From the NCBI GenBank assembly GCA_033762255.1, contig JANRLT010000061.1, positions 1-63,282 on the forward strand: a stretch of DNA of 63,282 nt, written 5' to 3'. A model generated the notes under the pieces. The model ran no database searches. It had not been told where the DNA came from and saw only the letters and a list, made by a program, of their open reading frames with translations. The translations under genes were made by a program, and so were the position numbers. Origin of the DNA: Pirellulales bacterium. GTDB lineage: Bacteria > Planctomycetota > Planctomycetia > Pirellulales > JALHPA01. Positions 3,311 to 46,170 of this stretch are shown here, piece after piece. Numbering within the stretch: position 1 is the first letter of the stretch; each line of letters begins with the position of its first letter.

Positions 3311-5205
3311 ATTTCACACTCCAGCACGCCACCACCCACCAGTCGCTTTGCTCCCTTCACCGGACCCGGCAATACCGCGTAATAATGGTCCAAATAGCTC
3401 AGTTGGCTATGGGCGGCGTCATGCAGGGTGTCCAGCCAGGGTTGCGGCACGCTGGCCAGGTCGGCATCCGGCAGCGTGATTTGCAGGGTCGTGTGCGGAT
3501 TGGCCAATAGTAACTGGCGAATAGCAGCCGAGGCCGATGGCAGTAACTCGCCCAGATTTCCCCCCGTTAGTCGGACATTCACCGCCTGGGCGAGCCGGTC
3601 CACGTGGTTATGTAGTTTGCCCGCCGCTAAATCAGCCGGGTTAAGGGATAAAATCCCCTCATGAGGCATGTTTTCCCCCGCAAATGGCCTTTCGGAACCA
3701 TTTTGTCCGATGCCGCAGACAATTTCACCGATCAAACCCAGGTCTTCGGGGCGGGTGGCGGGAATGGGGGCCTCGGCGGACCAGTCTAATGCCGCGCGGG
3801 TGGGGGCAGGCTCGGCCAGGGGGTCAAACTCGGCGTCAAACAGGTCCTGCGCCTCGTCCATCAGGTCCACCATGGTGGCCAAATCCAGCGTGGGCGTTTC
3901 GAGCACGTAATATGGCGGACGGGCCTGGTGACGCAGGCCTAACTGCGATGCTTCGTGCCGAAAGGCGGTTCCGGGCAAGATGGCTAGGTTAAAGACCTGC
4001 ACGCTGGTATACAGGCCGCTGTCATGGATGTAATCGAGGCTGCGGCGGATGGAGTCGACTGTGTCCCCCGGCAGGCCAATGATCAGGTCTACTTTGACCC
4101 GAATGCCATTATCCAGCATCGCCCGCGCCGCCCGCTGGTAGGAATGCAGGTTGTTGTTGCGGTCCATGAGCTGCATGGCCATGGGGTCAATCGATTGCAG
4201 GCCAATTTCAACCTCGGTAAAGTTGGCCTGGCGCAGGAGCTTAGCCGTGGGGGGCATGATCCCCTCGGCCCGGATTTCGCCAAAATAGCTGAATTGGCCA
4301 GCGGGGTTGGCTTCGGCCAGCAGACGCACAAAGTCATCAAACCGCGCCCGCTGATTGAGCGTCGGGTCTAAAATGACTACTTCCGTTGCGCCGCGCTCGC
4401 GGGCGTGGCGCAAATTCGCTAGGATTTTCTCTTGCGAAACAAAGTATAGGTCGTCGTAGCTTTTGGGATAAAAGCAGAATTTGCAGTTATAAATGCAGCC
4501 GCGGATCGTTTCTAACAGCAACATCCGTTCATCCGCAACGTCCAAGATGCCTGTTAAATACGGCGAACTAATGGGATCTAATTTTGGCAGCGGCCGCCGG
4601 GGGAGGGGGAGCTTTCCCGGGGAACGCCGCCAGTTGGGCTGGTGGGGGTCAAGGTCGGCGAACTTGCGGCTGTCGACGGGAGCGGCGACGTACAGACCGG
4701 GAATATCTAACCAGGCGTCATTAATCGGTGTAGTTGTATTGGCGGGGTTGCCGTTTTTTGCCGGCGAAGTGGCCGATTGCCGCGCGTTCCGCGTCAGCAA
4801 TTCCACAAAGGTCTGCTCCCCCTCGCCAATCGCCGCCAGATCGACCGCGGGATCGGTGAGGACCCAGTCGTTATCGAGAGTGATTTCCGGCCCGCCCAGC
4901 ATAATCAGCAACTCGGGGCGGGCGATTTTTAGCAGGCGGGCGATGTGGAGCGTGCGTTGGATATTCCACAGATAGCAGCTAAACCCGACCAGCCAGGGGT
5001 CCCGTGCCAATATTTGCCGAACCAGGGCCTGTTCGCCCGCCAGATTGGCCAGACGGGGGTCAAGGATCTCAATTTCGTAATCGCGGTCTAAATCATGCGC
5101 CAGGGCATGCATCTTTAGGTAGGCCGCGGCCAGCGGGACGTTGCCGCGGATCGGCTCGATACCAAAGGGGGGAATCGGCAATTGGGCCAACAGCACGCGG
5201 CGCAT
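3307..5205 (-). CDS. B12-binding domain radical SAM protein
   Basis: The 632-residue product has an N-terminal cobalamin-binding-like Rossmann region (about 1-135: LLAQLPIPPFG, LVGFSCYLWN, LLIMLGGPEIT, IGEGEQTF). A radical SAM core follows with the CX3CX2C cluster motif CIYNCKFC (Cys237, Cys241, Cys244), FGEIRAEG, VEIGLQSIDP and KVDLIIGLPGD. The C-terminal 170 residues are less conserved. Such proteins use a 4Fe-4S cluster and S-adenosylmethionine for radical chemistry, with cobalamin often as methyl carrier; the substrate cannot be told here. The cobalamin-ligand motif D-x-H-x-x-G is not obvious, so B12 binding is uncertain. The ATG at 5205 is preferred over an upstream TTG at 5220. The gene ends inside a direct repeat. 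A Uma2-like gene lies 21 bases upstream on the same strand. Confidence 0.85.
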   Translation of the reverse strand: MRRVLLAQLPIPPFGIEPIRGNVPLAAAYLKMHALAHDLDRDYEIEILDPRLANLAGEQALVRQILARDPWLVGFSCYLWNIQRTLHIARLLKIARPELLIMLGGPEITLDNDWVLTDPAVDLAAIGEGEQTFVELLTRNARQSATSPAKNGNPANTTTPINDAWLDIPGLYVAAPVDSRKFADLDPHQPNWRRSPGKLPLPRRPLPKLDPISSPYLTGILDVADERMLLLETIRGCIYNCKFCFYPKSYDDLYFVSQEKILANLRHARERGATEVVILDPTLNQRARFDDFVRLLAEANPAGQFSYFGEIRAEGIMPPTAKLLRQANFTEVEIGLQSIDPMAMQLMDRNNNLHSYQRAARAMLDNGIRVKVDLIIGLPGDTVDSIRRSLDYIHDSGLYTSVQVFNLAILPGTAFRHEASQLGLRHQARPPYYVLETPTLDLATMVDLMDEAQDLFDAEFDPLAEPAPTRAALDWSAEAPIPATRPEDLGLIGEIVCGIGQNGSERPFAGENMPHEGILSLNPADLAAGKLHNHVDRLAQAVNVRLTGGNLGELLPSASAAIRQLLLANPHTTLQITLPDADLASVPQPWLDTLHDAAHSQLSYLDHYYAVLPGPVKGAKRLVGGGVLECEM

Positions 5206-5226
5206 AAAAAGTTGGCCCAAAAAAGA

Positions 5227-5781
5227 CTAATTGGCAAATAATTCCGCCACCGGGCAGGAAAAACCCGGGAGCAAGTCCGGGGCCGTGAGTGTGTCGTTGA
5301 CACGTAGCGTGCGAGCGAAGCTGTCCGGCGTGTGGATGACAATTACTTGAGTGGAGGGGTAAACCACCCAAACTTGATGTGTGCCAGCGTTTAAATAATC
5401 CGCCACTTTCTCGTGAATTTCGGCGGCGCTATCCCCGAGAGAGACGACCTCAATCGCCAGATCGGGGGGGATTTCCCAATACCGCACAGGGACACCTGTG
5501 GCTGGGACACGTGCCGCGCGGACGTAGTACACATCCGGCCCACGCACGGTGTCTGGTCCGGATGAAAGGTGAAAGCCAGCGTCCGCGCACACCTCTCCCT
5601 GCCGACTGGATTCGGCCCAAAACCCCAGTCGCATAATCAGTTTGGCGACTATTCTTGAATGTCTTCCTCCAGGTGGCATGGATTCAATGACCTCTCCGCG
5701 TACTAGCTCGCGGCGCATGGTGCGGCTAGCGGGCAATTGCCAGAATTCGGCGGCGGTCAAAAGTGCGGTGGCAGAGGCCAT
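5227..5781 (-). CDS. Uma2 family (DUF820) putative endonuclease
   Basis: The 184-residue protein shows the PD-(D/E)XK-like pattern of the Uma2/DUF820 family: RRELVRGEVIESMPPGGRHS near the N-terminus, GPDVYYV, PPDLAIEVVS, EKVADYLNAGTHQVWVVYP and LPGFSCPVAELF at the end. Likely metal ligands are the Asp of GPD, the Glu of IEVVS and the Lys of EKV. The family is very abundant in cyanobacteria and planctomycetes; its biological role is unresolved. The ATG at 5781 (MASATALLT) matches the usual short N-terminus; a longer frame to 5958 would overlap the DUF1844 gene and reads unlike protein. It may share a transcript with the radical SAM gene downstream. Confidence 0.85.
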   Translation of the reverse strand: MASATALLTAAEFWQLPASRTMRRELVRGEVIESMPPGGRHSRIVAKLIMRLGFWAESSRQGEVCADAGFHLSSGPDTVRGPDVYYVRAARVPATGVPVRYWEIPPDLAIEVVSLGDSAAEIHEKVADYLNAGTHQVWVVYPSTQVIVIHTPDSFARTLRVNDTLTAPDLLPGFSCPVAELFAN

Positions 5782-5833
5782 GAATTTTTCCACAAGATTG
5801 CAGTGACAATTTTTTCTATTATACCATATCGTC

Positions 5834-6382
5834 TTAGCCTCCGCGTGATTCCTCCACAAAGGCCAGACGCAGTTGATACAGCCAATTGCGCAATATATTG
5901 GATTCCTCGGGCGTGCGGTTGCCGCTGGTTTTTTCCTCGAGGATTTCCAGCGTGTCAATGTAGTGCCGGGCCGCGGGAAGGTCGCGCGTCGCTTGCCCGG
6001 TCAGCGGATGCGGAATATCCCCCAGGGCCATGAGCGCCTGCGTGGCTAGCGTATTAATGAGAAACGCCAACGACGCGGGGGGAAACTGCCGCGTGGCGTC
6101 CGCCGCCGTGGGGGGAGGAGCCTTTCCCGCGGGGGAAGTCGATGATTGCGGCTCGGTGGTTTGTGGCAATGCGGCAGATTCAGGGGGAGAGGAATCCGCC
6201 GGAGCCACCACCGGAGAAGGGGCGTCACCGGTAGGCGTTTCCCCCGACAAAGGGACCGCGCCCCCATGGTCAGGGACATCTGTCCCGCCAGCAACACCGC
6301 GTATACGGGCTTTTTCGGCCTGGACTTGGGATTTCCAATCTTCGTCAACGAGAATTTTAGAGGGAGGGGGTTCCTGGGACAT
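5834..6382 (-). CDS. DUF1844 domain protein
   Basis: The 182-residue protein has an N-terminal segment (MSQEPPPSKILVDEDWKSQV), a Pro/Ser/Thr-rich linker of about 60 residues, and a C-terminal DUF1844 domain from about 100 (FPPASLAFLINTLATQALMA, LGDIPHPLTGQ, HYIDTLEILEEKTSGN, EESNILRNWLYQLRLAFVE). DUF1844 is a small helical domain of unknown function that is frequent in planctomycetes and some other phyla. No Shine-Dalgarno site is seen before the ATG at 6382. The linker is longer than in most relatives. Confidence 0.88.
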   Translation of the reverse strand: MSQEPPPSKILVDEDWKSQVQAEKARIRGVAGGTDVPDHGGAVPLSGETPTGDAPSPVVAPADSSPPESAALPQTTEPQSSTSPAGKAPPPTAADATRQFPPASLAFLINTLATQALMALGDIPHPLTGQATRDLPAARHYIDTLEILEEKTSGNRTPEESNILRNWLYQLRLAFVEESRGG

Positions 6383-38069: not shown

Positions 38070-38806
<737 letters not shown>

Positions 38807-38890
38807 ATGTTGAATGAAAGTATGATGAACAGAGACAAATTGATATTTCCCCAGCGGACGGTTTTACGACGCCTCTCACAGGCAAACGAC

Positions 38891-38920
38891 AAACCCAGGG
38901 GAGGTTACCACCCTGGGTTT
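38891..38920 (-). terminator. Hairpin after the PEP-CTERM gene
   Basis: AAACCCAGGG (38891-38900) and CCCTGGGTTT (38911-38920) form a perfect 10-bp stem with a 10-base loop, about 70 bases after the stop of the PEP-CTERM gene. There is only a short T-run, so intrinsic termination is likely but not certain. Confidence 0.6.
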
Positions 38921-38990
38921 GTAATCCACGATTAGTGCCGAATGACAATCGAGTGATAATCCCGCACTCTAAAACACGTTCCGTTACTGT

Positions 38991-39647
38991 CTATCGCTTT
39001 GTATGGCGTTGGTACAGGAAATACCAACCAAGGGTGCTGCCCAAAACTACCCATAGTGTCACTATAGAGGGTTCTGGAATAGCTACTACAGTAACATTGT
39101 CTAGAGCACTTTTAAAGTTAGATCTCTCGGCACCGTGATAAAAGGTCAACGTGGTTGAGGAATTTTCTGCGGTAAATGAAAACCTGAACAATTCCCAATT
39201 AAGCATATACCATGAACCCGGACCCGGAGATTTAAAAAAACTTACTCGCGGACCAAAATCAAGGCTTAAATCCACGAGAGTTGGAAAGAATGTTCTACCA
39301 TCCGTTCCGCCACCAACATAAAAACTAACCTCATATTGTTGGCCAGACGTGGTGGGGAAACTTTGCCTGATGCCACTGTTTCGCGAATTTTGGAAAAGCC
39401 CACCCAGATCGATCCACTGATTCCCCGACTGTGCATTAAATGTAATATCGCTATCGGTAAACATAGTGTTAACTAATGCAGAATTTACCCCAACAACCTC
39501 CCAGCCTTGCAAGTTCGCTCCTCCACGGAAATTGGTAAACCCCCCGACTGGGACAAATGGTGTTTCAAACGAGCCATTGCTAATCAAATTTGCCTGCGCG
39601 ACGCCTACACTACAGCAGATAGCGAGTGCAATAAAAAATGAAAGCAT
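38991..39647 (-). CDS. PEP-CTERM sorted exported protein
   Basis: The 218-residue protein starts with a signal peptide (MLSFFIALAICCSVGVAQA). A beta-rich body follows (NLISNGSFETP, LQGWEVVG, YEVSFYVGGGTDG, WELFRFSFTAENSSTT), like DUF642/carbohydrate-binding-type modules. It ends with the PEP-CTERM sorting signal IPEPSIVTLWVV, a hydrophobic helix and a basic tail (YQRHTKR). Such proteins are processed by an exosortase and join the extracellular matrix. The exosortase is not in the window. The gene is more AT-rich than its neighbours (many A/T third positions), suggesting transfer. The ATG at 39647 begins the signal peptide. Confidence 0.85.
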   Translation of the reverse strand: MLSFFIALAICCSVGVAQANLISNGSFETPFVPVGGFTNFRGGANLQGWEVVGVNSALVNTMFTDSDITFNAQSGNQWIDLGGLFQNSRNSGIRQSFPTTSGQQYEVSFYVGGGTDGRTFFPTLVDLSLDFGPRVSFFKSPGPGSWYMLNWELFRFSFTAENSSTTLTFYHGAERSNFKSALDNVTVVAIPEPSIVTLWVVLGSTLGWYFLYQRHTKR

Positions 39648-39760
39648 TTTCAAGGTTGATACCTCAAAGTTGAAAAGTGAAATGGCCACCATAATTTCCG
39701 AGATTGCTCAATATTATAGTTACTTAGTTTATACTTGCGGCAAGCGTTCACGTCCGTTAC

Positions 39761-41236
39761 TTATATCGTGCTTGGCACGACAAAGGGCGCCCGGTACTCG
39801 CGCGTGAGCAGGTCGTTCGCGCGGGCGTTGCCGGGGAATGTCTCGGTCACGGGATCAAAGGTTAGGACCTCTCCCGCCTGCCAACGGGTGGAATCATCAA
39901 GGTGGACATGGTTGTCATCTAAATGCCGGGTAGTCCTTTCAAGCGTGTCGGCCACATCGTCGGCCAGTTTGACTTCTTGCAGACACTCGCGCAGCTCGCT
40001 GGGGCCAACCGGCTGGCCCAGCAAGTAGGAAATATTACCCGTGTGGCACAGCGCGCTCGACAGGTGCCCTTCGAGAATGGGGCCTTGCAGCTTACTGGCG
40101 TCATGCGCCCGAACGGCATCCACAAAGTTATGAAAATGGTTCCCGCCGCCGCGAAATTGCTTGATCGCCTGGCCATTTTTGTCAAATACCGTCCCGTCGG
40201 AATAGCTGGTCATGACCAGGTATCCGTCCGATCCCTCGACAATAATTCCCACCTTGGCCGTCTTAAAATCGCCGGTTTCCAGCCCGCGAACCTCAAACAC
40301 GATCGATTTATCGCCAAAGTCGTGCACCACCACCTGCGTGTTGGGCGTTTCCCCGGAATCCACATAACCAAACCGCCCGCCATAGCTAATGACCCGCTTG
40401 CTCAGTTGATTGACATTTAACGCCCAGCGGCAGAGGTCCATCTGGTGGATTCCCTGGTTTCCCAGGTCCCCATTGCCATAGGGCCATTGCCAGTGCCAGT
40501 CATAATGAAACTGTTTGCGGGTCAGGGGGGCCAGCGGCGCGGGACCGCACCATAGATCGTAATCCACGCTTTTTGGCGGGGAAAATTCACCCGCCGCGCC
40601 GATAGAAGGACGCCGCTTATAACAGAGCCCCCGCGCCAGTTTGACCTCCCCCAGCTTGCCGGTGTGAACATATTCCATGGCAGCGCGCATGCCGCCGGTC
40701 GAGCGGGACTGCGTGCCGACCTGGCAGATGCGGCCTAGTTTTTCCGCCGCCTGGACGATCCGCCGCCCTTCGCTGACGTTATGGCTAACGGGCTTTTCCA
40801 CGTAGACGTCCTTACCGGCCTGCATCGCCCAAATCGCGGTCAGCGCGTGCCAGTGATTGGGCGTGGCGGTGGAGATAAAATTGATCGAGGGATTTTCAAA
40901 GACGCGGCGCATGTCTTGGACAAATTCTGGCTTATGGCCGGTCGACTTGGCGATTTCCTCACAGACAGAGTTACCCACGTCGGCGTCGGCGTCGCAGATC
41001 ATGGCGATGCGGACATCCTTGCGTTGGGAAAATTCGCTAATATGTTCGCGTCCACGGCTGCGTACGCCTATGATCGCACACAAGAGCTGTTCATTGGGGC
41101 TGGTGGATTGGGGGGGGGCGTCGGCGGCCAGTGCCGATTGCCCTATCCCCAGGCCCGTCAATGGCGAAGCGGCTAGGGCGGCGGCGGTGGCCAACATCGA
41201 ACGTTCCAGCATTTCCCGGCGTGTGAGTTGCGACAT
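39761..41236 (-). CDS. Gfo/Idh/MocA-family oxidoreductase, Tat-type leader
   Basis: The 491-residue protein begins MSQLTRREMLERSMLATAAA, a twin-arginine export leader. The Rossmann domain follows (LLCAIIGVRSRGREHISEFS), with FISTATPNHWHALTAI, VYVEKPVSHNVSEG (EKP) and a C-terminal domain with HQMDLCRWALNVNQLSKRVI. It probably acts on sugars or glycosides with bound NAD. The substrate is unknown. An in-frame ATG lies two codons upstream (41242) with GGAG at only 3 bases, so ATG 41236 (9-base spacing) was chosen; this is not certain. The gene ends 114 bases from the PEP-CTERM gene. Confidence 0.92.
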   Translation of the reverse strand: MSQLTRREMLERSMLATAAALAASPLTGLGIGQSALAADAPPQSTSPNEQLLCAIIGVRSRGREHISEFSQRKDVRIAMICDADADVGNSVCEEIAKSTGHKPEFVQDMRRVFENPSINFISTATPNHWHALTAIWAMQAGKDVYVEKPVSHNVSEGRRIVQAAEKLGRICQVGTQSRSTGGMRAAMEYVHTGKLGEVKLARGLCYKRRPSIGAAGEFSPPKSVDYDLWCGPAPLAPLTRKQFHYDWHWQWPYGNGDLGNQGIHQMDLCRWALNVNQLSKRVISYGGRFGYVDSGETPNTQVVVHDFGDKSIVFEVRGLETGDFKTAKVGIIVEGSDGYLVMTSYSDGTVFDKNGQAIKQFRGGGNHFHNFVDAVRAHDASKLQGPILEGHLSSALCHTGNISYLLGQPVGPSELRECLQEVKLADDVADTLERTTRHLDDNHVHLDDSTRWQAGEVLTFDPVTETFPGNARANDLLTREYRAPFVVPSTI

Positions 41237-41432
41237 AAACATGGTCTCCGGTGGGAATGGGGCAATGGCGGATGAGGGGATTGTGTCAGGCAAGGGGGCC
41301 CCTGGGGGCATATAAAAAGACCGTGCAAAAAACTTCACTATGAAAAGCTCAGTTTATCGCGGCCAGCAGGGCAATGCAAATGTTTTTTTGCTGGCCGACA
41401 GGCCCCCGTAGATGTGGTTGTGTTTATCAATC

Positions 41433-41511
41433 ATCAGCCGGAACGCGCTAGCGTCCGGTTGTATTTTGCTTGTTGGCTTATTAAACCGTGGGCTAGCGCC
41501 CGTCGGCTGAT
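41433..41511. repeat. REP pair, copy 1
   Basis: A 79-base element starts ATCAGCCGGAACGCGCTAGC and ends CCCGTCGGCTGAT, so its ends are inverted repeats (ATCAGCC/GGCTGAT). Each half can form its own hairpin (CCGGA.CGC/GCGTCCGG; GGGC-TAG-CGCCC), as in paired REP (BIME-like) elements. It overlaps the last five codons of the RAYT gene. Confidence 0.85.
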
Positions 41512-41993
41512 AATTCTCGATCCATTCGGTCTTGAGCTTCGTTAACGTACAGGCACACGGCCTCCAAGTCATTGAGATCGTTGAGACATTCCCAGTCGCC
41601 ACCGACTGTCCAGATCGGTCTGTCGCGGAACTCGGTCCACACTTCGCGCAAACCTCGAGTGCAGTTCGCCTTCAATTGATCGCGGACAATTTTACCGGAA
41701 CAGCCTGCGGCAGTGGCCACGACATGCACATGATTCGTGCGCGCGTTGACGGTCCACAACTGCCAACCACGATGTTTACAGTGTCCGCGGCATTCTCCTT
41801 CAACGACCAGGCGTTGCTCGGGCGACAAGAGCAACACCTCGTGCTGGAGGCGATTCCTTCGCCAATTCGCCAATTGCGGTTGCGGTAGTTGATTCCCTTG
41901 CCGCCTATGCCGCCAACCGCGCTCATCACCCTGCAAGTGCGAGCCGTATACGGTCCAGGTGATGAAAAACGCTAGAGGTTCAGAAGCGTTCAT
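41493..41993 (-). CDS. REP-associated tyrosine transposase (RAYT), intact
   Basis: RAYTs are IS200-like Y1 nucleases thought to mobilise REP sequences. The 166-residue protein reads EPLAFFITWTVYGSHLQGDE at the N-terminus. It has the HUH motif NHVHVV (His88, His90) and the tail EAVCLYVNEAQDRM with Tyr149 as candidate catalytic tyrosine. Length is normal for the short class. It is flanked by direct copies of a REP pair: one begins 10 bases upstream of the ATG and the other covers the stop codon, so the C-terminal SADGR is encoded by REP DNA. A third, diverged copy lies at 43537-43614. The gene is complete and could be active. Confidence 0.9.
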   Translation of the reverse strand: MNASEPLAFFITWTVYGSHLQGDERGWRHRRQGNQLPQPQLANWRRNRLQHEVLLLSPEQRLVVEGECRGHCKHRGWQLWTVNARTNHVHVVATAAGCSGKIVRDQLKANCTRGLREVWTEFRDRPIWTVGGDWECLNDLNDLEAVCLYVNEAQDRMDRELSADGR

Positions 41994-42003
41994 ATGAATT
42001 ATA

Positions 42004-42081
42004 ATCAGCCGGAACGCGCTAGCGTCCGGTTAAAATGAATTGCTGAAACATTAAACCGTGGGCTAGTGCCCGTCGGCTGAT
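42004..42081. repeat. REP pair, copy 2
   Basis: A 78-base element of the same sequence and orientation as 41433-41511 (ATCAGCC...GGCTGAT, two internal hairpins, central spacer differing). It lies directly upstream of the RAYT start codon, so that the RAYT gene and both elements form a unit of 649 bases (41433-42081). Confidence 0.85.
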
Positions 42082-42128
42082 GATGTAGTGGTGATTTCCC
42101 TCTCTACACGTATTTCCACAAGACCCGC

Positions 42129-42494
42129 TTAACCAGCCACCGGCTGCCCAATGCGCAACAGGTTGCCATCGGGGTCGACAATCGCAAACTCCCGCATTCC
42201 CCACGGTTGGTCATTTAGGGAATCTTGCCGGGGAATACCGGACAGGGGCAATTTCGCCGTCTGGCAAGCGGCAAAAAAGCTATCGACATCGGCGACGCGG
42301 ATGTAACAACCCGCGTGCGAAATTTCGGGACGCAGGTTTGTCATGGTGAAAAAGTGCAGTTCCACCGAGCCACGCTGCAAGATAGCGTAATCGCCATGGG
42401 GATGAATATCGCCGCTAAAACCCAATCGCCGGTAAAACGCCAGCGTCTGGTCGAGGGACCGGCAAGGGAGCGTGGGTATGGCTAGGTCGTGCAT
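42129..42494 (-). CDS. VOC-superfamily protein (glyoxalase/bleomycin-resistance type)
   Basis: The 121-residue protein has the paired beta-alpha-beta-beta-beta pattern of the vicinal oxygen chelate fold: IPTLPCRSLDQTLAFYRRLG, YAILQRGSVELHFFTM, AGCYIRVADVDSFFAAC and FAIVDPDGNLLRIGQP. Sequence features are like bleomycin-resistance-type proteins (RGSVELHFF with a His, and the closing 'DPDGN' motif). Metal-dependent enzymes and antibiotic-binding proteins share the fold, so the reaction is not determined. The stop is about 50 bases from the REP pair copy 2. Confidence 0.82.
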   Translation of the reverse strand: MHDLAIPTLPCRSLDQTLAFYRRLGFSGDIHPHGDYAILQRGSVELHFFTMTNLRPEISHAGCYIRVADVDSFFAACQTAKLPLSGIPRQDSLNDQPWGMREFAIVDPDGNLLRIGQPVAG

Positions 42495-42526
42495 GGGGTG
42501 GTAATCGTATCGGCGGTTGAGAGGGA

Positions 42527-42751
42527 TTAAATTGCTGCTTTTAATGGGAGTTGCGGTTGGCTCGAATACTCGCTTACTTCCAACGGCATCCGGTCGATTT
42601 CAGTCAAAAAGCCCCCTGCGGAACGCCGGTAGTTGTCGGGATTTGTTTCCATTTTTCGAAAATGAGCAAGTTGTGCCTGAAAGAAGCGAATGCATTCCAG
42701 GGTAAAGTCGAGTTCTTGATCGTTATGAATTATGGGTAGCCTTACAAGCAC
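42527..42751 (-). CDS. Short protein of unknown function
   Basis: The 74-residue product starts with GTG at 42751 (MLVRLPIIHNDQELDFTLEC) and continues IRFFQAQLAHFRKMETNPDN, YRRSAGGFLTEIDRM. It has mixed helical character with no membrane segment. The 'HNDQELDFTLECIRFF' start reads like a conserved short protein but I cannot name a family. No close neighbour explains it. Moderate AT content matches the accessory patch around it. Confidence 0.55.
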   Translation of the reverse strand: MLVRLPIIHNDQELDFTLECIRFFQAQLAHFRKMETNPDNYRRSAGGFLTEIDRMPLEVSEYSSQPQLPLKAAI

Positions 42752-42840
42752 GTTTCTCGGTGTGGAGCTAAAATTTTATTGATTTAGAAATTTGAACGTG
42801 ATACGTGATACCAGCATTTTCGGCAAAGTTAATAGGAGCG

Positions 42841-43149
42841 TTACATCGAATCAAACTTTAGATCGGCATGGTCAAGTAAGCCAAAGTAAAAGTAGAGTTT
42901 AGCACACTCCGGATATTGAGACATGCAAAATTCATCTAGGAATTGATTCACCAAGTCGTAATGGTTATTCCATAAAACCCTCTCCGCAATGACCGCATGT
43001 TCCTCAAGTTGCTCAGCCGTGATCTGGTCCAAGTAAGCGAAGATTTCGTTTTCCGACCGGCAATTACAACCAAGTACGGGAGCGATGAGATAATGCAATT
43101 CCTCCGGCAGGTTTATCAGCACTCCGACTTGATAGGAAGAATGATCCAT
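42841..43149 (-). CDS. Acidic small protein of unknown function
   Basis: The 102-residue protein is acidic and helical (LPEELHYLIAPVLGCN, SENEIFAYLDQITAEQLEEH, LVNQFLDEFCMSQYPECAKL) with a start MDHSSYQVGVL. I recognise no family; the size and acidic helices resemble small immunity-type proteins, but there is no toxin gene next to it, so this is only an observation. It is AT-richer than the surrounding core genes. Confidence 0.6.
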   Translation of the reverse strand: MDHSSYQVGVLINLPEELHYLIAPVLGCNCRSENEIFAYLDQITAEQLEEHAVIAERVLWNNHYDLVNQFLDEFCMSQYPECAKLYFYFGLLDHADLKFDSM

Positions 43150-43172
43150 GTTGAAAAATTATGAGTTAATTC

Positions 43173-43478
43173 TTAGTGCCGCAACGAAAGATAAAACGTC
43201 GGTAAAAAGAACATGCCAAAGATTCCCAGCACAATTCCCAACCTGGCGTGGGAGGACGGCCTAAGGAGTTGTGCCAGGGCGCTGATGATAAATCCTGGCA
43301 ATGCCAGAAAAGCCACGTACATGGCAATCATCGAGATCCAGTCGCCAAACATCCCCACCCCGAATACAGCCATAAAACCAGTAAGGGAAAGGCCCAGTCC
43401 AATTTTAGCAAGCAAACTGTCCGGGGGAATCGCGGGCTGGTCTGGCTGCGACAATGGTGACGCGTAGGGATTTTGCAT
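43173..43478 (-). CDS. Small membrane protein with MQNPYASP N-terminus
   Basis: The 101-residue protein starts MQNPYASPLSQPDQPAIPPD, a Pro/Asn-rich leader found on many planctomycete small membrane proteins. About three hydrophobic helices follow (IGLGLSLTGFMAVFGVGMFG, ISMIAMYVAFLALPGFIISA, LGIVLGIFGMFFLPTFYL). Function unknown. The ATG at 43478 fits the leader; an earlier in-frame start at 43538 would run into REP DNA. Confidence 0.65.
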   Translation of the reverse strand: MQNPYASPLSQPDQPAIPPDSLLAKIGLGLSLTGFMAVFGVGMFGDWISMIAMYVAFLALPGFIISALAQLLRPSSHARLGIVLGIFGMFFLPTFYLSLRH

Positions 43479-43536
43479 TTGGGGAGATGTTAAGCGTAAT
43501 TGAACTATGGGTTGATAATGGTGTGTTGGTTTATCC

Positions 43537-43614
43537 ATCTGCTGGAACGTGCTATTGTCGGGTGGAAATTAATTGTTGGTTTATTGAACCGTGGACTAGC
43601 GCCTGTCGGCTGAT
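43537..43614. repeat. REP pair, diverged copy 3
   Basis: About 78 bases resemble the REP pair copies at 41433 and 42004 in the same orientation (ATCTGCTGGAACGTGCTATT ... GCGCCTGTCGGCTGATG). Both hairpins have many mismatches, so this is an older copy. It lies 59 bases upstream of the small membrane protein's start and 20 bases downstream of the SDR stop. Confidence 0.7.
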
Positions 43615-43633
43615 GTTATGGTATCGCCCTCAT

Positions 43634-44437
43634 TCACCCATACTTTCGCATCGCCCGGTCCACCAGCCACGGGCAGAGCCGATTCGCCCAGACCAAGGCC
43701 CGCCCACGCCAGTTGGGGACAATTTCTCCCCGCCCGGTTTCGATGGCCCGCACAATCGCCCGCGCCACCCTTTCCGCCGGGACACCCGGCGGACTGGGCC
43801 ATGGGGGGGTATGGTCGTCACCCAAAGTGTGGGCGTAGAAGTCCGTCTCGGTGGTACCAGGACTGACCAGTAACAGATCAATGCCGATTTTATTTAGCTC
43901 AGGACGGACGCTTTCGGACCAGCCGCGCAGGGCAAATTTGCTCGCGCAGTATTCACTATTTTGCGGAGTCGCGCGGTGGCCAAGGATTGAGCCTAAATTA
44001 ACAATCAAAGGGGTCTGGCCATTCTGTAGCAAAGGGAGTGCCGCCCGGCATAGTTCGACCGGGGCAAAAAAGTTGACCTCAAAAATAGTCCGTAATAGCC
44101 GGGGGTCGGATTGGGCAAACCGTCCCAAGCTGCCCGTGCCGGCGTTGTTTATCAGCAAATCCAAGCCGTGAAAACGGGATTCGACCATCCGCAGGGCGGC
44201 GGTGCGGTCCTCGGGACGGGTGATGTCCCCGACAAAGATCGCCGTTTGACCGGGGTGATTACGCGGATCTTGTGGGTTTTCCCAAGTTTTTTGCCATTCG
44301 GCCAGCAATTCCCCCCGGCGGGCCATTCCTAGGACATGTACGCCTTGCCCGACCAGCAAATCCGCCACCGCCCGTCCAATTCCACTGGAAACTCCGGTGA
44401 CCAAGGCCCTTAAATTTTTCAGTTTACGACGTATCAT
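43634..44437 (-). CDS. Short-chain dehydrogenase/reductase (SDR)
   Basis: The 267-residue protein shows the classical SDR layout: RALVTGVSSGIGRAVADLLV (TGxxxGIG), LDLLINNAGTGSLGRFA (NNAG), and the catalytic Ser of NLGSILGHR with Tyr/Lys in EYCASKFALRGW. NAD(P)-dependent oxidation or reduction is expected; the substrate is unknown. Length is normal. No partner gene is adjacent. Confidence 0.92.
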   Translation of the reverse strand: MIRRKLKNLRALVTGVSSGIGRAVADLLVGQGVHVLGMARRGELLAEWQKTWENPQDPRNHPGQTAIFVGDITRPEDRTAALRMVESRFHGLDLLINNAGTGSLGRFAQSDPRLLRTIFEVNFFAPVELCRAALPLLQNGQTPLIVNLGSILGHRATPQNSEYCASKFALRGWSESVRPELNKIGIDLLLVSPGTTETDFYAHTLGDDHTPPWPSPPGVPAERVARAIVRAIETGRGEIVPNWRGRALVWANRLCPWLVDRAMRKYG

Positions 44438-44776
44438 AATGTAGGCAGCACACCCAGGGAGGATGTGTTATTTCCGCGAATGAGATAAAATAAGGCGGGT
44501 GAATTCACAGCCGGACTGTGAAGTTTTTCACTTGTTGGTGATTGTACTTTGCCAGGCGGCGAAATAAGACCACGACAGACCGCAACCCGTAGACGTGTCG
44601 CACTCATGGGCCGGACTGCTAAAAATGTGGAAATTTCGGTCTTTTGGCAATCCGCGGCGATACTTGCCAATTTTTACGCGGCCGGTCGCCTGATCAATCA
44701 TGGTAAGCGATTTGCAATTCTTGGGTAAAGTCGGAACCATTTTCGCTGACCCAGAAAGTTGTGTGCCCACAATCTA
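44438..44776. other. Intergenic stretch between divergent genes
   Basis: About 340 bases between the SDR and DedA genes. No RNA gene or clear terminator was seen. Two short similar words (CAGCCGGACTG and GGGCCGGACTG) occur near 44510 and 44610. Confidence 0.45.
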
Positions 44777-45850
44777 ATGGATGAATTACTGCACCAGTAC
44801 GGCTATTTTGGGATTATTTTCTTTCTGGTATTGACCGGCTTTGGCCTGCCAATTCCCGAAGAGGTAGCCCTGATTGCCGCCGGGATTATGGCCGCCAAAG
44901 GCTACCTGGATATCTGGTTGGCCATGGGGGCCTGCCTGATTGGGTGCCTGCTGGGCGATAGCATTATGTATTTGATAGGCTATCGGCTGGGGGGGCGGAT
45001 GCTGCGCCCCGGATCGTTTTGGCGAAATTATCTCACGCCCGAACGGGAAAAATCTTTGGAACACCTGATCCACCGCCACGGGGTCAAAGTATTTTTTGTT
45101 TCGCGATTCTTGGTCGGGGTACGCTCCCCCGTTTATTTGACCGCGGGTATCTTACGCTATCCTTACCGCAAATTTTTTATTACCGACCTGTTTTGCGCAT
45201 CATTGGTAATTTTGCTTTTTACCGGGCTAAGTTATTTCTTTGGCGAATGGGCGGTCCGCATGGTCCAACAGGCCGAATACGGTTTGACCATTTTGGTCGG
45301 CGTGGGTCTGGTAGGGGCCACCATATTTGGTTGGTATTACGTGTATCACCGCCGCGGACCGCATGATCCCGGGGCGTTAGGCAAACTACTCGGCGAGGAT
45401 CAGCAAAGCATGGAAGAAGGCCTGCAGGATGAGGAACAATCCGCCACGTCCCAGCCAACCTCGACAGGCACCTCCCCGGAAGAAATTAACAATAGCCAGT
45501 CACCTTCTTTAACAGAACCCGTGGCGGAAAGTGCTGCCACGGCGACGCCGAGGATCCAATCTCCCGTAGCGGCTATTCCACCCCAGCCCACGGACGCTGC
45601 CTTAGAGACATCGCCCCCCCCGGAAAAGCCTAACCGAGCCGTGGGGACCGACCTGGACGCGGGACCCAACCCCGTACCCCGTCAAAATGGAAGCGTCAAT
45701 CCGCAAACCTCCCCCTCGACCGGTTTACACCCCCGCCAAAACGGTAATTTTGCGGGGGGTAATGGAAGCGATTATTCGCGTAAGCTAGGCAAAGCGACCG
45801 ACAGCTTGGATGGAACCCAGCTTACCGCCCTGAGTAAAAAGCGGATTTAG
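44777..45850 (+). CDS. DedA family membrane protein with disordered tail
   Basis: DedA/SNARE-associated proteins are inner-membrane transporters, some of which recycle undecaprenyl phosphate or other lipids. The 357-residue protein has the DedA domain (1-200): IIFFLVLTGFGLPIPEEVAL, LIGCLLGDSIMYLIGYRLGG and VFFVSRFLVGVRSPVYLTAG (family motif with Arg). Several further membrane helices follow. A hydrophilic tail of about 150 residues rich in Pro, Ser, Thr, Gln and Glu comes after, unlike the compact family norm. ATG 44777 is preferred over an upstream TTG at 44759. It faces away from the SDR gene. Confidence 0.9.
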   Translation: MDELLHQYGYFGIIFFLVLTGFGLPIPEEVALIAAGIMAAKGYLDIWLAMGACLIGCLLGDSIMYLIGYRLGGRMLRPGSFWRNYLTPEREKSLEHLIHRHGVKVFFVSRFLVGVRSPVYLTAGILRYPYRKFFITDLFCASLVILLFTGLSYFFGEWAVRMVQQAEYGLTILVGVGLVGATIFGWYYVYHRRGPHDPGALGKLLGEDQQSMEEGLQDEEQSATSQPTSTGTSPEEINNSQSPSLTEPVAESAATATPRIQSPVAAIPPQPTDAALETSPPPEKPNRAVGTDLDAGPNPVPRQNGSVNPQTSPSTGLHPRQNGNFAGGNGSDYSRKLGKATDSLDGTQLTALSKKRI

Positions 45851-46170
45851 CAAATGCTAGCGTTAGTTAAGTGGGATGCCACGTAAAATTCGCAGTTCGT
45901 TTGTAGGAATTAAAAGAGTAGGTTCTGTAATTTTTTCATTTTTCCGGGGCGGCCTCTTGTAAATCTGTACACTTTGGTGTATGATTGCCACCAGTGAACA
46001 TTCGACCACAAAGGAAAATGGTCGAAAAATCACGTAAAAGACGGACGACTATGATTTTTTTAGATTGTTTTTTGTGCGGCGCGTGATTTGGCACACTGCG
46101 TGCATTAACAAACTTCCGTCTTGTCAGGATCTTAATCTTCTCAGTTTTTTCACAAAGAATGGAGTCTGTC
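45851..46170. other. csrA upstream region
   Basis: About 320 bases between DedA and csrA. It holds a short TACAC-TTTG-GTGTA palindrome near 45965-45982 and, further down, the 8-bp hairpin with an AAGGA loop listed separately, then AT-rich sequence with T-runs. The csrA promoter should be here but no convincing hexamers were identified. Confidence 0.55.
46001..46026 (+). promoter_or_regulatory. Hairpin with ANGGA loop in the csrA leader
   Basis: TTCGACCA (46001-46008) and TGGTCGAA (46019-46026) form a perfect 8-bp stem with the loop CAAAGGAAAA. AAGGA in the loop matches ANGGA, the core of CsrA-binding sites, which are usually displayed in a hairpin loop. A second ANGGA (ATGGA, 46159-46163) overlaps the csrA ribosome binding site. 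Together this is the layout expected of CsrA autoregulation; binding is not shown. Confidence 0.6.

Follow-up and report, generated by a model that had tools for sequence, protein, structure and literature searches.

A RAYT-like gene between two REP pairs in a Pirellulales genome and the REP-bordered sites of its relatives

The window, the whole stretch of 63,282 nt analysed here, is contig C61 of a Pirellulales genome of 5.47 Mb (72 contigs, 96.6% complete). Between an SDR-family gene and a Gfo/Idh/MocA oxidoreductase gene, it carries a RAYT-like gene with a pair of 28-nt REPs on either side. The features of the region are as follows.

39761-41338, minus strand: flanking Gfo/Idh/MocA oxidoreductase gene, likely start ATG 41236 (Pfam, neighbour comparison).
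41433-43614, no strand: REP-bounded block, absent between the SDR and MocA orthologues in 17 of the 46 relatives read.
41433-41460, plus strand: REP A, left end of the unit, foot ATCA outward (pattern search, folding).
41484-41511, minus strand: REP B, which codes the last five RAYT codons and the TAG stop (pattern search, folding).
41493-41993, minus strand: RAYT/TnpA-REP-like gene, 166 aa, with HUH (H88, H90), Tyr149 and Q154 (alignment, predicted fold, structure search).
42004-42031, plus strand: REP A, identical to the 41433 copy, beginning 10 nt from the RAYT start codon (pattern search).
42054-42081, minus strand: REP B with one mismatch, right end of the 649-nt unit (pattern search).
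42129-42494, minus strand: glyoxalase/VOC-family gene inside the block (match in 1 of 145 relatives at E ≤ 1e-10).
43587-43614, minus strand: fifth REP, type B, decayed and weakly folding, 19 nt past the SDR gene stop, right end of the 2,182-nt block (pattern search, folding).
43634-44437, minus strand: flanking SDR-family gene (Pfam; one match at E ≤ 1e-45 in nearly all genomes having SDR).

In both pairs, a 28-nt REP A on the plus strand is followed, after a spacer of 22-23 nt, by a 28-nt REP B on the minus strand. Pair 1 occupies 41433-41511 (79 bp), and pair 2 occupies 42004-42081 (78 bp), starting 10 bases upstream of the RAYT ATG (41993, minus strand). The gene takes its TAG stop (41493-41495) from the REP loop GCTAGC, and REP DNA also codes for residues 162-166 (SADGR). 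The gene and its two pairs form a unit of 649 nt (41433-42081) with the ends ATCAGCC and GGCTGAT. The two pairs, their distance from the start codon, the stop and last five residues in REP DNA, and the 649-nt unit with its ends had been read by the first-pass annotation, and its coordinates and numbers are correct to the base; the fifth REP at 43587-43614, which bounds a larger block, is absent from it. The A copies (41433 and 42004) are identical and the B copies (41484 and 42054) differ at one base. The spacers of the two pairs are unrelated, indicating that only the REPs themselves are repeated.

The 28-nt REP consists of ATCAGCCG, four variable bases, GCGCTAGC, three variable bases and CGGTT. 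In single-strand folding, each of the four unit REPs presents an unpaired ATCA that is followed directly by the stem. Both REP pairs fold better than 200 of 200 shuffles (z -4.3 and -5.9), and the fifth REP folds no better than its shuffles. A chance repeat is ruled out: searched with the two half-REP patterns, the window has 2 and 3 matches, and 100 shuffles of it have none. In further scans of the region, no known RNA family of Rfam matches 38500-46000, the promoter scan gives 0 sites (shuffle mean 2.6), and terminator-like sites number 6 (shuffle mean 3.6, sd 2.2).

A stop codon within a REP loop, and a pair placed so close to the start codon, would suit REPs that act at the RAYT gene mainly as RNA hairpins over the stop and before the start, controlling RAYT expression. 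Across 56 RAYT loci, kept after duplicates and loci with short flanks are dropped, the stop codon lies within a recurring 12-mer at 5 loci, compared with 0 of 56 for the start codon and 0 of 56 for a mid-gene position. These five (L056, L060, L071, L151 and the window RAYT) carry REPs of differing types. However, five of 56 loci are a minority, and a point 40 nt past the stop falls in a recurring 12-mer at 33 of the 56, indicating that the REPs usually lie just beyond the stop. The REP family is also dispersed genome-wide, and REP-given stop codons of flanking ORFs are already on record, as are REPtrons and the overlap of REPs with the RAYT 3' end, in the available text of PMC3733652. We consider such a mainly RNA-level role very improbable.

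The protein carries the residues expected of a single-tyrosine HUH enzyme. All 34 of the 34 aligned rows have H88, H90 and Y149, and Q154 is almost as constant; the Y----Q motif is present as Y149...Q154. The Pfam profile Y1_Tnp matches 31 of the 34 rows at E ≤ 0.01, and the window protein, at 13.9 bits against a cut-off of 23, is not among them. Among the same rows, the NCBIfam model REP_Tyr_transpos (REP-associated tyrosine transposase) matches 13 and transpos_IS200 matches 27. The NCBIfam scan of the window protein itself gives no match, and its sequence is too far from NCBI's RAYT model. An AlphaFold2 model of the window protein has a pLDDT of 89 and a pTM of 0.82. In a structure search with this model, IS200-type transposases come out on top (2ec2, Z 15.7; 2f4f, Z 15.3), and the E. 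coli RAYT-REP complex 4er8 reaches Z 10.2, compared with 8.7 for the best unrelated row. The predicted fold is that of the IS200-type transposases and E. coli RAYT, Y1 HUH. A kinetochore protein, the sole match of a sequence search against solved structures, has E 0.72 and is taken as chance.

The genome has a single copy of the RAYT gene; its other matches there are two of 38% and 30% identity and two fragments at E 0.05 and 0.41. The one at 38% identity (L051, C60:51253-51723) is a second RAYT-like gene and stands beside a different repeat, of the GTTAGCAAGGG type. One gene copy per REP type thus holds for the window genome. Among 146 genomes searched, its own included, 39 have a RAYT relative at E ≤ 1e-8. 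Named relatives of the protein are mostly from Planctomycetota, with some from Acidobacteria, and the nearest by name are from Planctomycetota.

The 28-nt REP is a real dispersed family. With at most 3 mismatches allowed, the pattern has 112 matches genome-wide (54 plus, 58 minus), and the reversed pattern has 0 in the same whole-genome search. The count settles a check proposed in the first-pass annotation, in that REP pairs occur elsewhere in the genome too. Among 100 of the 112 REPs listed, 80 are of type B and 20 of type A, and 59 stand in groups; neighbours within 150 nt in this same set are inverted in 28 of 31 cases, the feet pointing outward in 18 of these and inward in 10. Spacers are conserved within each of two recurrent doublet types, which makes the doublet look like the unit that spread. 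One type has its feet outward in a 39-nt register (C7:6178, C20:33627, C6:79909 and others), and the other has its feet inward in a 52-nt register (C39:35556, C67:50080, C72:19855, C60:19296). The spacers of the RAYT-flanking pairs are not shared with the dispersed doublets of the genome. With their inverted arrangement and two types of conserved spacer, the doublets resemble REPINs as outlined by Bertels and Rainey 2011 (PMC3116915, available text); they differ from that outline in the low number of REPs and in the RAYT-flanking doublets having spacers of their own.

The association of gene and repeat extends over related genomes. For 59 distinct RAYT loci, kept after removal of duplicates and short flanks, an exact repeat of at least 14 nt is common to both gene flanks at 50; such a repeat is present in 2% of the 398 pairings made across loci and in none of the 295 shuffles. 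The type of REP foot tracks the branch of the protein over 61 related loci (duplicates and short flanks again dropped; foot patterns written after the flanks were read). In particular, AT[CT]AGCC feet are found at least twice at 16 of 17 RAYTs with at least 54% identity, at 1 of 10 with 46-54%, and at 1 of 34 below. NTGAGC feet are found at 0 of 17, 9 of 10 and 3 of 34, respectively. Comparison of 14 ATCA-type with 8 NTGA-type proteins, with 11 distant rows outside both groups and L098 left out of the NTGA group because of its short flank, gives five alignment columns that split the groups with no overlap: 21 (Q/P), 45, 100 (mostly G/P), 122 (mostly F/L) and 134 (mostly W/C). These columns are candidates for foot recognition, in which a role in recognition is confounded with descent.

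Four other genomes of the 146 have a RAYT at least 55% identical and contain 21, 103, 108 and 454 REPs of the pattern. The genome with 454, G136, has three divergent RAYTs, one of them within an array of alternating REPs. Orphan REP sets also occur: in G028, G052, G126 and G132 there are 17-30 REPs of the pattern, and the profile search finds no RAYT. The number of REPs is therefore not always coupled to the presence of a RAYT, and a strict link between them fails on these four genomes.

REP-bearing relatives that have no RAYT would be expected if the REPs were leftovers of past activity and the protein no longer active. The weak Y1_Tnp match of the window protein points the same way, as does the state of the REPs in the window genome, where the family varies and some copies are decayed. 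However, the RAYT frame is open with all catalytic residues kept, the fold is predicted with high confidence, and the two REP A copies are identical. We regard a relic as quite unlikely.

The same evidence upholds the identification as a REPtron made in the first-pass annotation: a single-tyrosine HUH gene between REPs, with a RAYT-like predicted fold and a dispersed REP family. Gammaproteobacterial REPtrons, such as that of E. coli (4er8), likewise have a single-copy Y1 HUH gene of the same fold between REPs, REP doublets dispersed genome-wide, and REP subtypes combined in pairs. The canonical class 2 RAYTs have a 5' GT[AG]G foot, whereas the window REPs have ATCA instead, and a classical GTAG RAYT is ruled out by this foot. 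The nearest published group is class 3 TnpA-Y1 of Planctomycetes and Acidobacteria, for which Y----Q, CnGA feet and many genomic hairpins are given in the available description (Quentin et al. 2018, PMC6006769). On that description, the window RAYT agrees with class 3 in phyla (Planctomycetota, some Acidobacteria) and in Y----Q, and its locus shares several atypical flanking hairpins that recur in the genome, REPtron-like. The foot, however, is CnGA in class 3 as described and ATCA here, the NTGA of the sister branch (46-54% identity) being closer. Because the CnGA foot is not found, we place the locus among the REPtrons, on a branch that resembles class 3, and do not assign it to class 3 itself. 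An ATCA foot does not appear in the text passages on RAYTs and REPs that were searched.

IS200/IS605 elements (IS608, ISDra2) have the same Y1 HUH fold and supply the best structural matches of the window model; in contrast to them, the window RAYT is single-copy and has the same outward-facing hairpins at both ends. TnpB is not found among six window neighbours scanned with Pfam. Searches of a plasmid collection and a phage collection give no match. An autonomous insertion sequence, multi-copy and self-moving, is ruled out by the single copy and by the lack of a match in these collections.

The genes on either side of the REPs allow the site to be compared with relatives. The SDR gene is present in 123 of 146 genomes, in one copy in all but two. 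In 17 of the 46 relatives for which the SDR downstream flank is read, SDR and MocA are adjacent in the same order and orientation. Their distance, taken up to the first ATG from the aligned start onward, is 105-459 nt in these 17 and 2,397 nt in the window. Neither a REP (up to 5 mismatches) nor a RAYT is found between SDR and MocA in the 17 relatives. The outermost REPs of the window (41433 and 43587-43614), with feet outward, enclose 2,182 nt, and the 215 nt outside them are within the relatives' range. The DNA absent in relatives thus fits the 2,182-nt block and not specifically the 649-nt unit. By comparison of sequences, SDR-MocA is a filled site in the window and an empty site in relatives, with REPs at both borders of the surplus DNA. 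The refuting condition set in the first-pass annotation, a unit fixed in all relatives with no REP pairs elsewhere, does not hold, and on this test its proposal survives.

The 17 empty-site relatives span four families (f14, f16, f19 and f20). The choice of 20 of the SDR loci favoured f14 and f16, since adjacent SDR and MocA genes were by then known from G014 and G016, and these two families are over-sampled. MocA is not found after SDR in the other 29 of the 46, over 0.9-3.6 kb of flank read. G001, the sole genome of the same family, is among these 29, its contig ending 2,266 nt after SDR, so it is from more distant families that the empty state is read. Another of the 29, G101, has a weak RAYT match (L202; E 3e-6, 20% identity) 960 nt beyond its SDR orthologue.

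Besides the RAYT unit, the 2,182-nt block contains the glyoxalase-family gene and small ORFs. The glyoxalase-family gene is rare in the order. With a match in 1 of 145 relatives it gives the block the look of accessory DNA, and was itself likely acquired, judging from this distribution. Base composition is not very informative: GC content drops from 0.54-0.56 at the RAYT to about 0.42 across the small ORFs (42500-43250), but DNA beyond the block, at 38750-39750, shows a comparable dip to 0.43-0.44.

Comparable sites are found elsewhere. In four genomes of genus g44, the site beside dnaE is filled in both orientations, holds a lone pair, or is empty. In G057, dnaE is followed by a REP pair, a RAYT in the dnaE direction and a second REP pair. 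In G080, the same RAYT (76% identical) has the opposite orientation and lies beside a duplicated dnaE 3' end; this duplicate (L168), 69 aa of the dnaE C-terminus, is next to the inverted RAYT unit, with some 440 nt between it and the complete dnaE gene. In G085, dnaE is followed by one REP pair and no RAYT, and this pair has the same 54-nt register as the RAYT-flanking pairs of G057 and G080. In G094, neither a REP of the type nor a RAYT is found in the dnaE flank read. In genus g17, G077 has REPs, a RAYT and a REP pair. G092 has a REP pair that matches that of G077 and is alignable through the spacer, with one REP lacking its foot, and no RAYT; G016 has neither REP nor RAYT at the site. At L232 in G092 (4501-6129), an unrelated ORF of 477 codons lies between an outward-facing REP and the REP pair, and is possibly REP-bounded cargo that has no RAYT. 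Two ATCA-type RAYTs of congeners (L143 and L144) share no flanking genes and thus gave no empty-site test. The states of the dnaE and g17 sites indicate that, at REP borders, RAYT segments are gained, lost and inverted.

Such gains, losses and inversions could come from ordinary homologous or replication-slippage recombination between REP pairs, in which case the RAYT would not be moving itself. Being near-identical to each other and at the same time inverted repeats, the flanking pairs permit deletion as well as inversion. A single REP pair remains in G085 and in G092 at sites where a congener has pair, RAYT and pair, and the G080 unit adjoins the duplicated dnaE 3' end. For loss and flipping, such recombination is at least as good an explanation as transposition. 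Taken alone, however, it leaves unexplained both the first arrival at the SDR-MocA site and the matching of RAYT to REP. We hold recombination as the whole explanation to be a serious possibility, at somewhat under even odds.

The RAYT could instead excise and insert the segment between outward-facing REPs, of 649 nt or 2,182 nt, as a self-contained mobile unit like a macro-REPIN or composite element. The ends ATCAGCC and GGCTGAT are present on both the 649-nt unit and the 2,182-nt block, the SDR-MocA sites of relatives are empty, and the dnaE site occurs filled in both orientations, with a lone pair or empty. The 477-codon ORF that G092 has at the position of the G077 unit, with an outward-facing REP on one side and a REP pair on the other, would also fit. 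However, the genome has only one RAYT copy, and multi-RAYT genomes (G016, G057, G119 and G136, in which a subset of pairs was compared directly) have copies too divergent (47-61% identity) to be fresh duplicates. No match comes from the plasmid and phage collections, the DNA missing from relatives exceeds 649 nt, and recombination could have produced the dnaE and G077 cases by deletion, inversion or replacement. The proposal in the first-pass annotation that the unit moves as a whole is only partly supported: the filled, empty and flipped sites in relatives stand in its favour, and the size of the absent DNA, the single copy and the lack of a plasmid or phage match stand against it. A self-contained mobile unit is, in our judgement, rather unlikely.

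RAYTs are described as domesticated and immobile. We favour, with a probability of about 0.72, a resident REPtron: a single-copy gene whose Y1 HUH protein spreads REP doublets in trans, and which arrived with REP-bounded accessory DNA. The 166-aa protein would be a Y1 HUH single-strand endonuclease. It probably binds the 28-nt REP hairpin via the stem and the unpaired 5' ATCA foot, and would use Tyr149 to cut and rejoin single-stranded DNA. REP doublets would be spread around the chromosome in trans by this activity, the RAYT gene itself staying as a single-copy resident; DNA cleavage and REP movement by the RAYT are what we infer from the residues, the predicted fold and the repeats. The gene may have reached the SDR-MocA site as part of REP-bounded accessory DNA, and the REP pairs would serve as joints at which RAYT segments are gained, lost or flipped. 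For Pseudomonas and Stenotrophomonas, the available texts of PMC3686654 and PMC3390384 do report RAYT genes at novel positions, acquisition that was probably lateral, and REPs in the absence of a RAYT.

An extension of the resident REPtron would make outward-facing REPs the ends of composite units. The class-3-like RAYT would cut single strands at any two ATCA feet and so pick up, drop or flip a segment, including its own gene and the glyoxalase-family cargo. We think this extension unlikely; if it were true, REPtrons would not be strictly immobile. The arrangement as such is a known one in an under-studied phylum, to which the match of foot to branch is a useful addition and the REP-bordered filled, flipped and empty sites a suggestive one. 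The matching of the foot (ATCA or NTGA) to the branch, together with the five separating columns, makes recognition testable by swaps. Transposition and recombination can be told apart at the sites where related genomes show a filled, a flipped or an empty state, or a single remaining REP pair.
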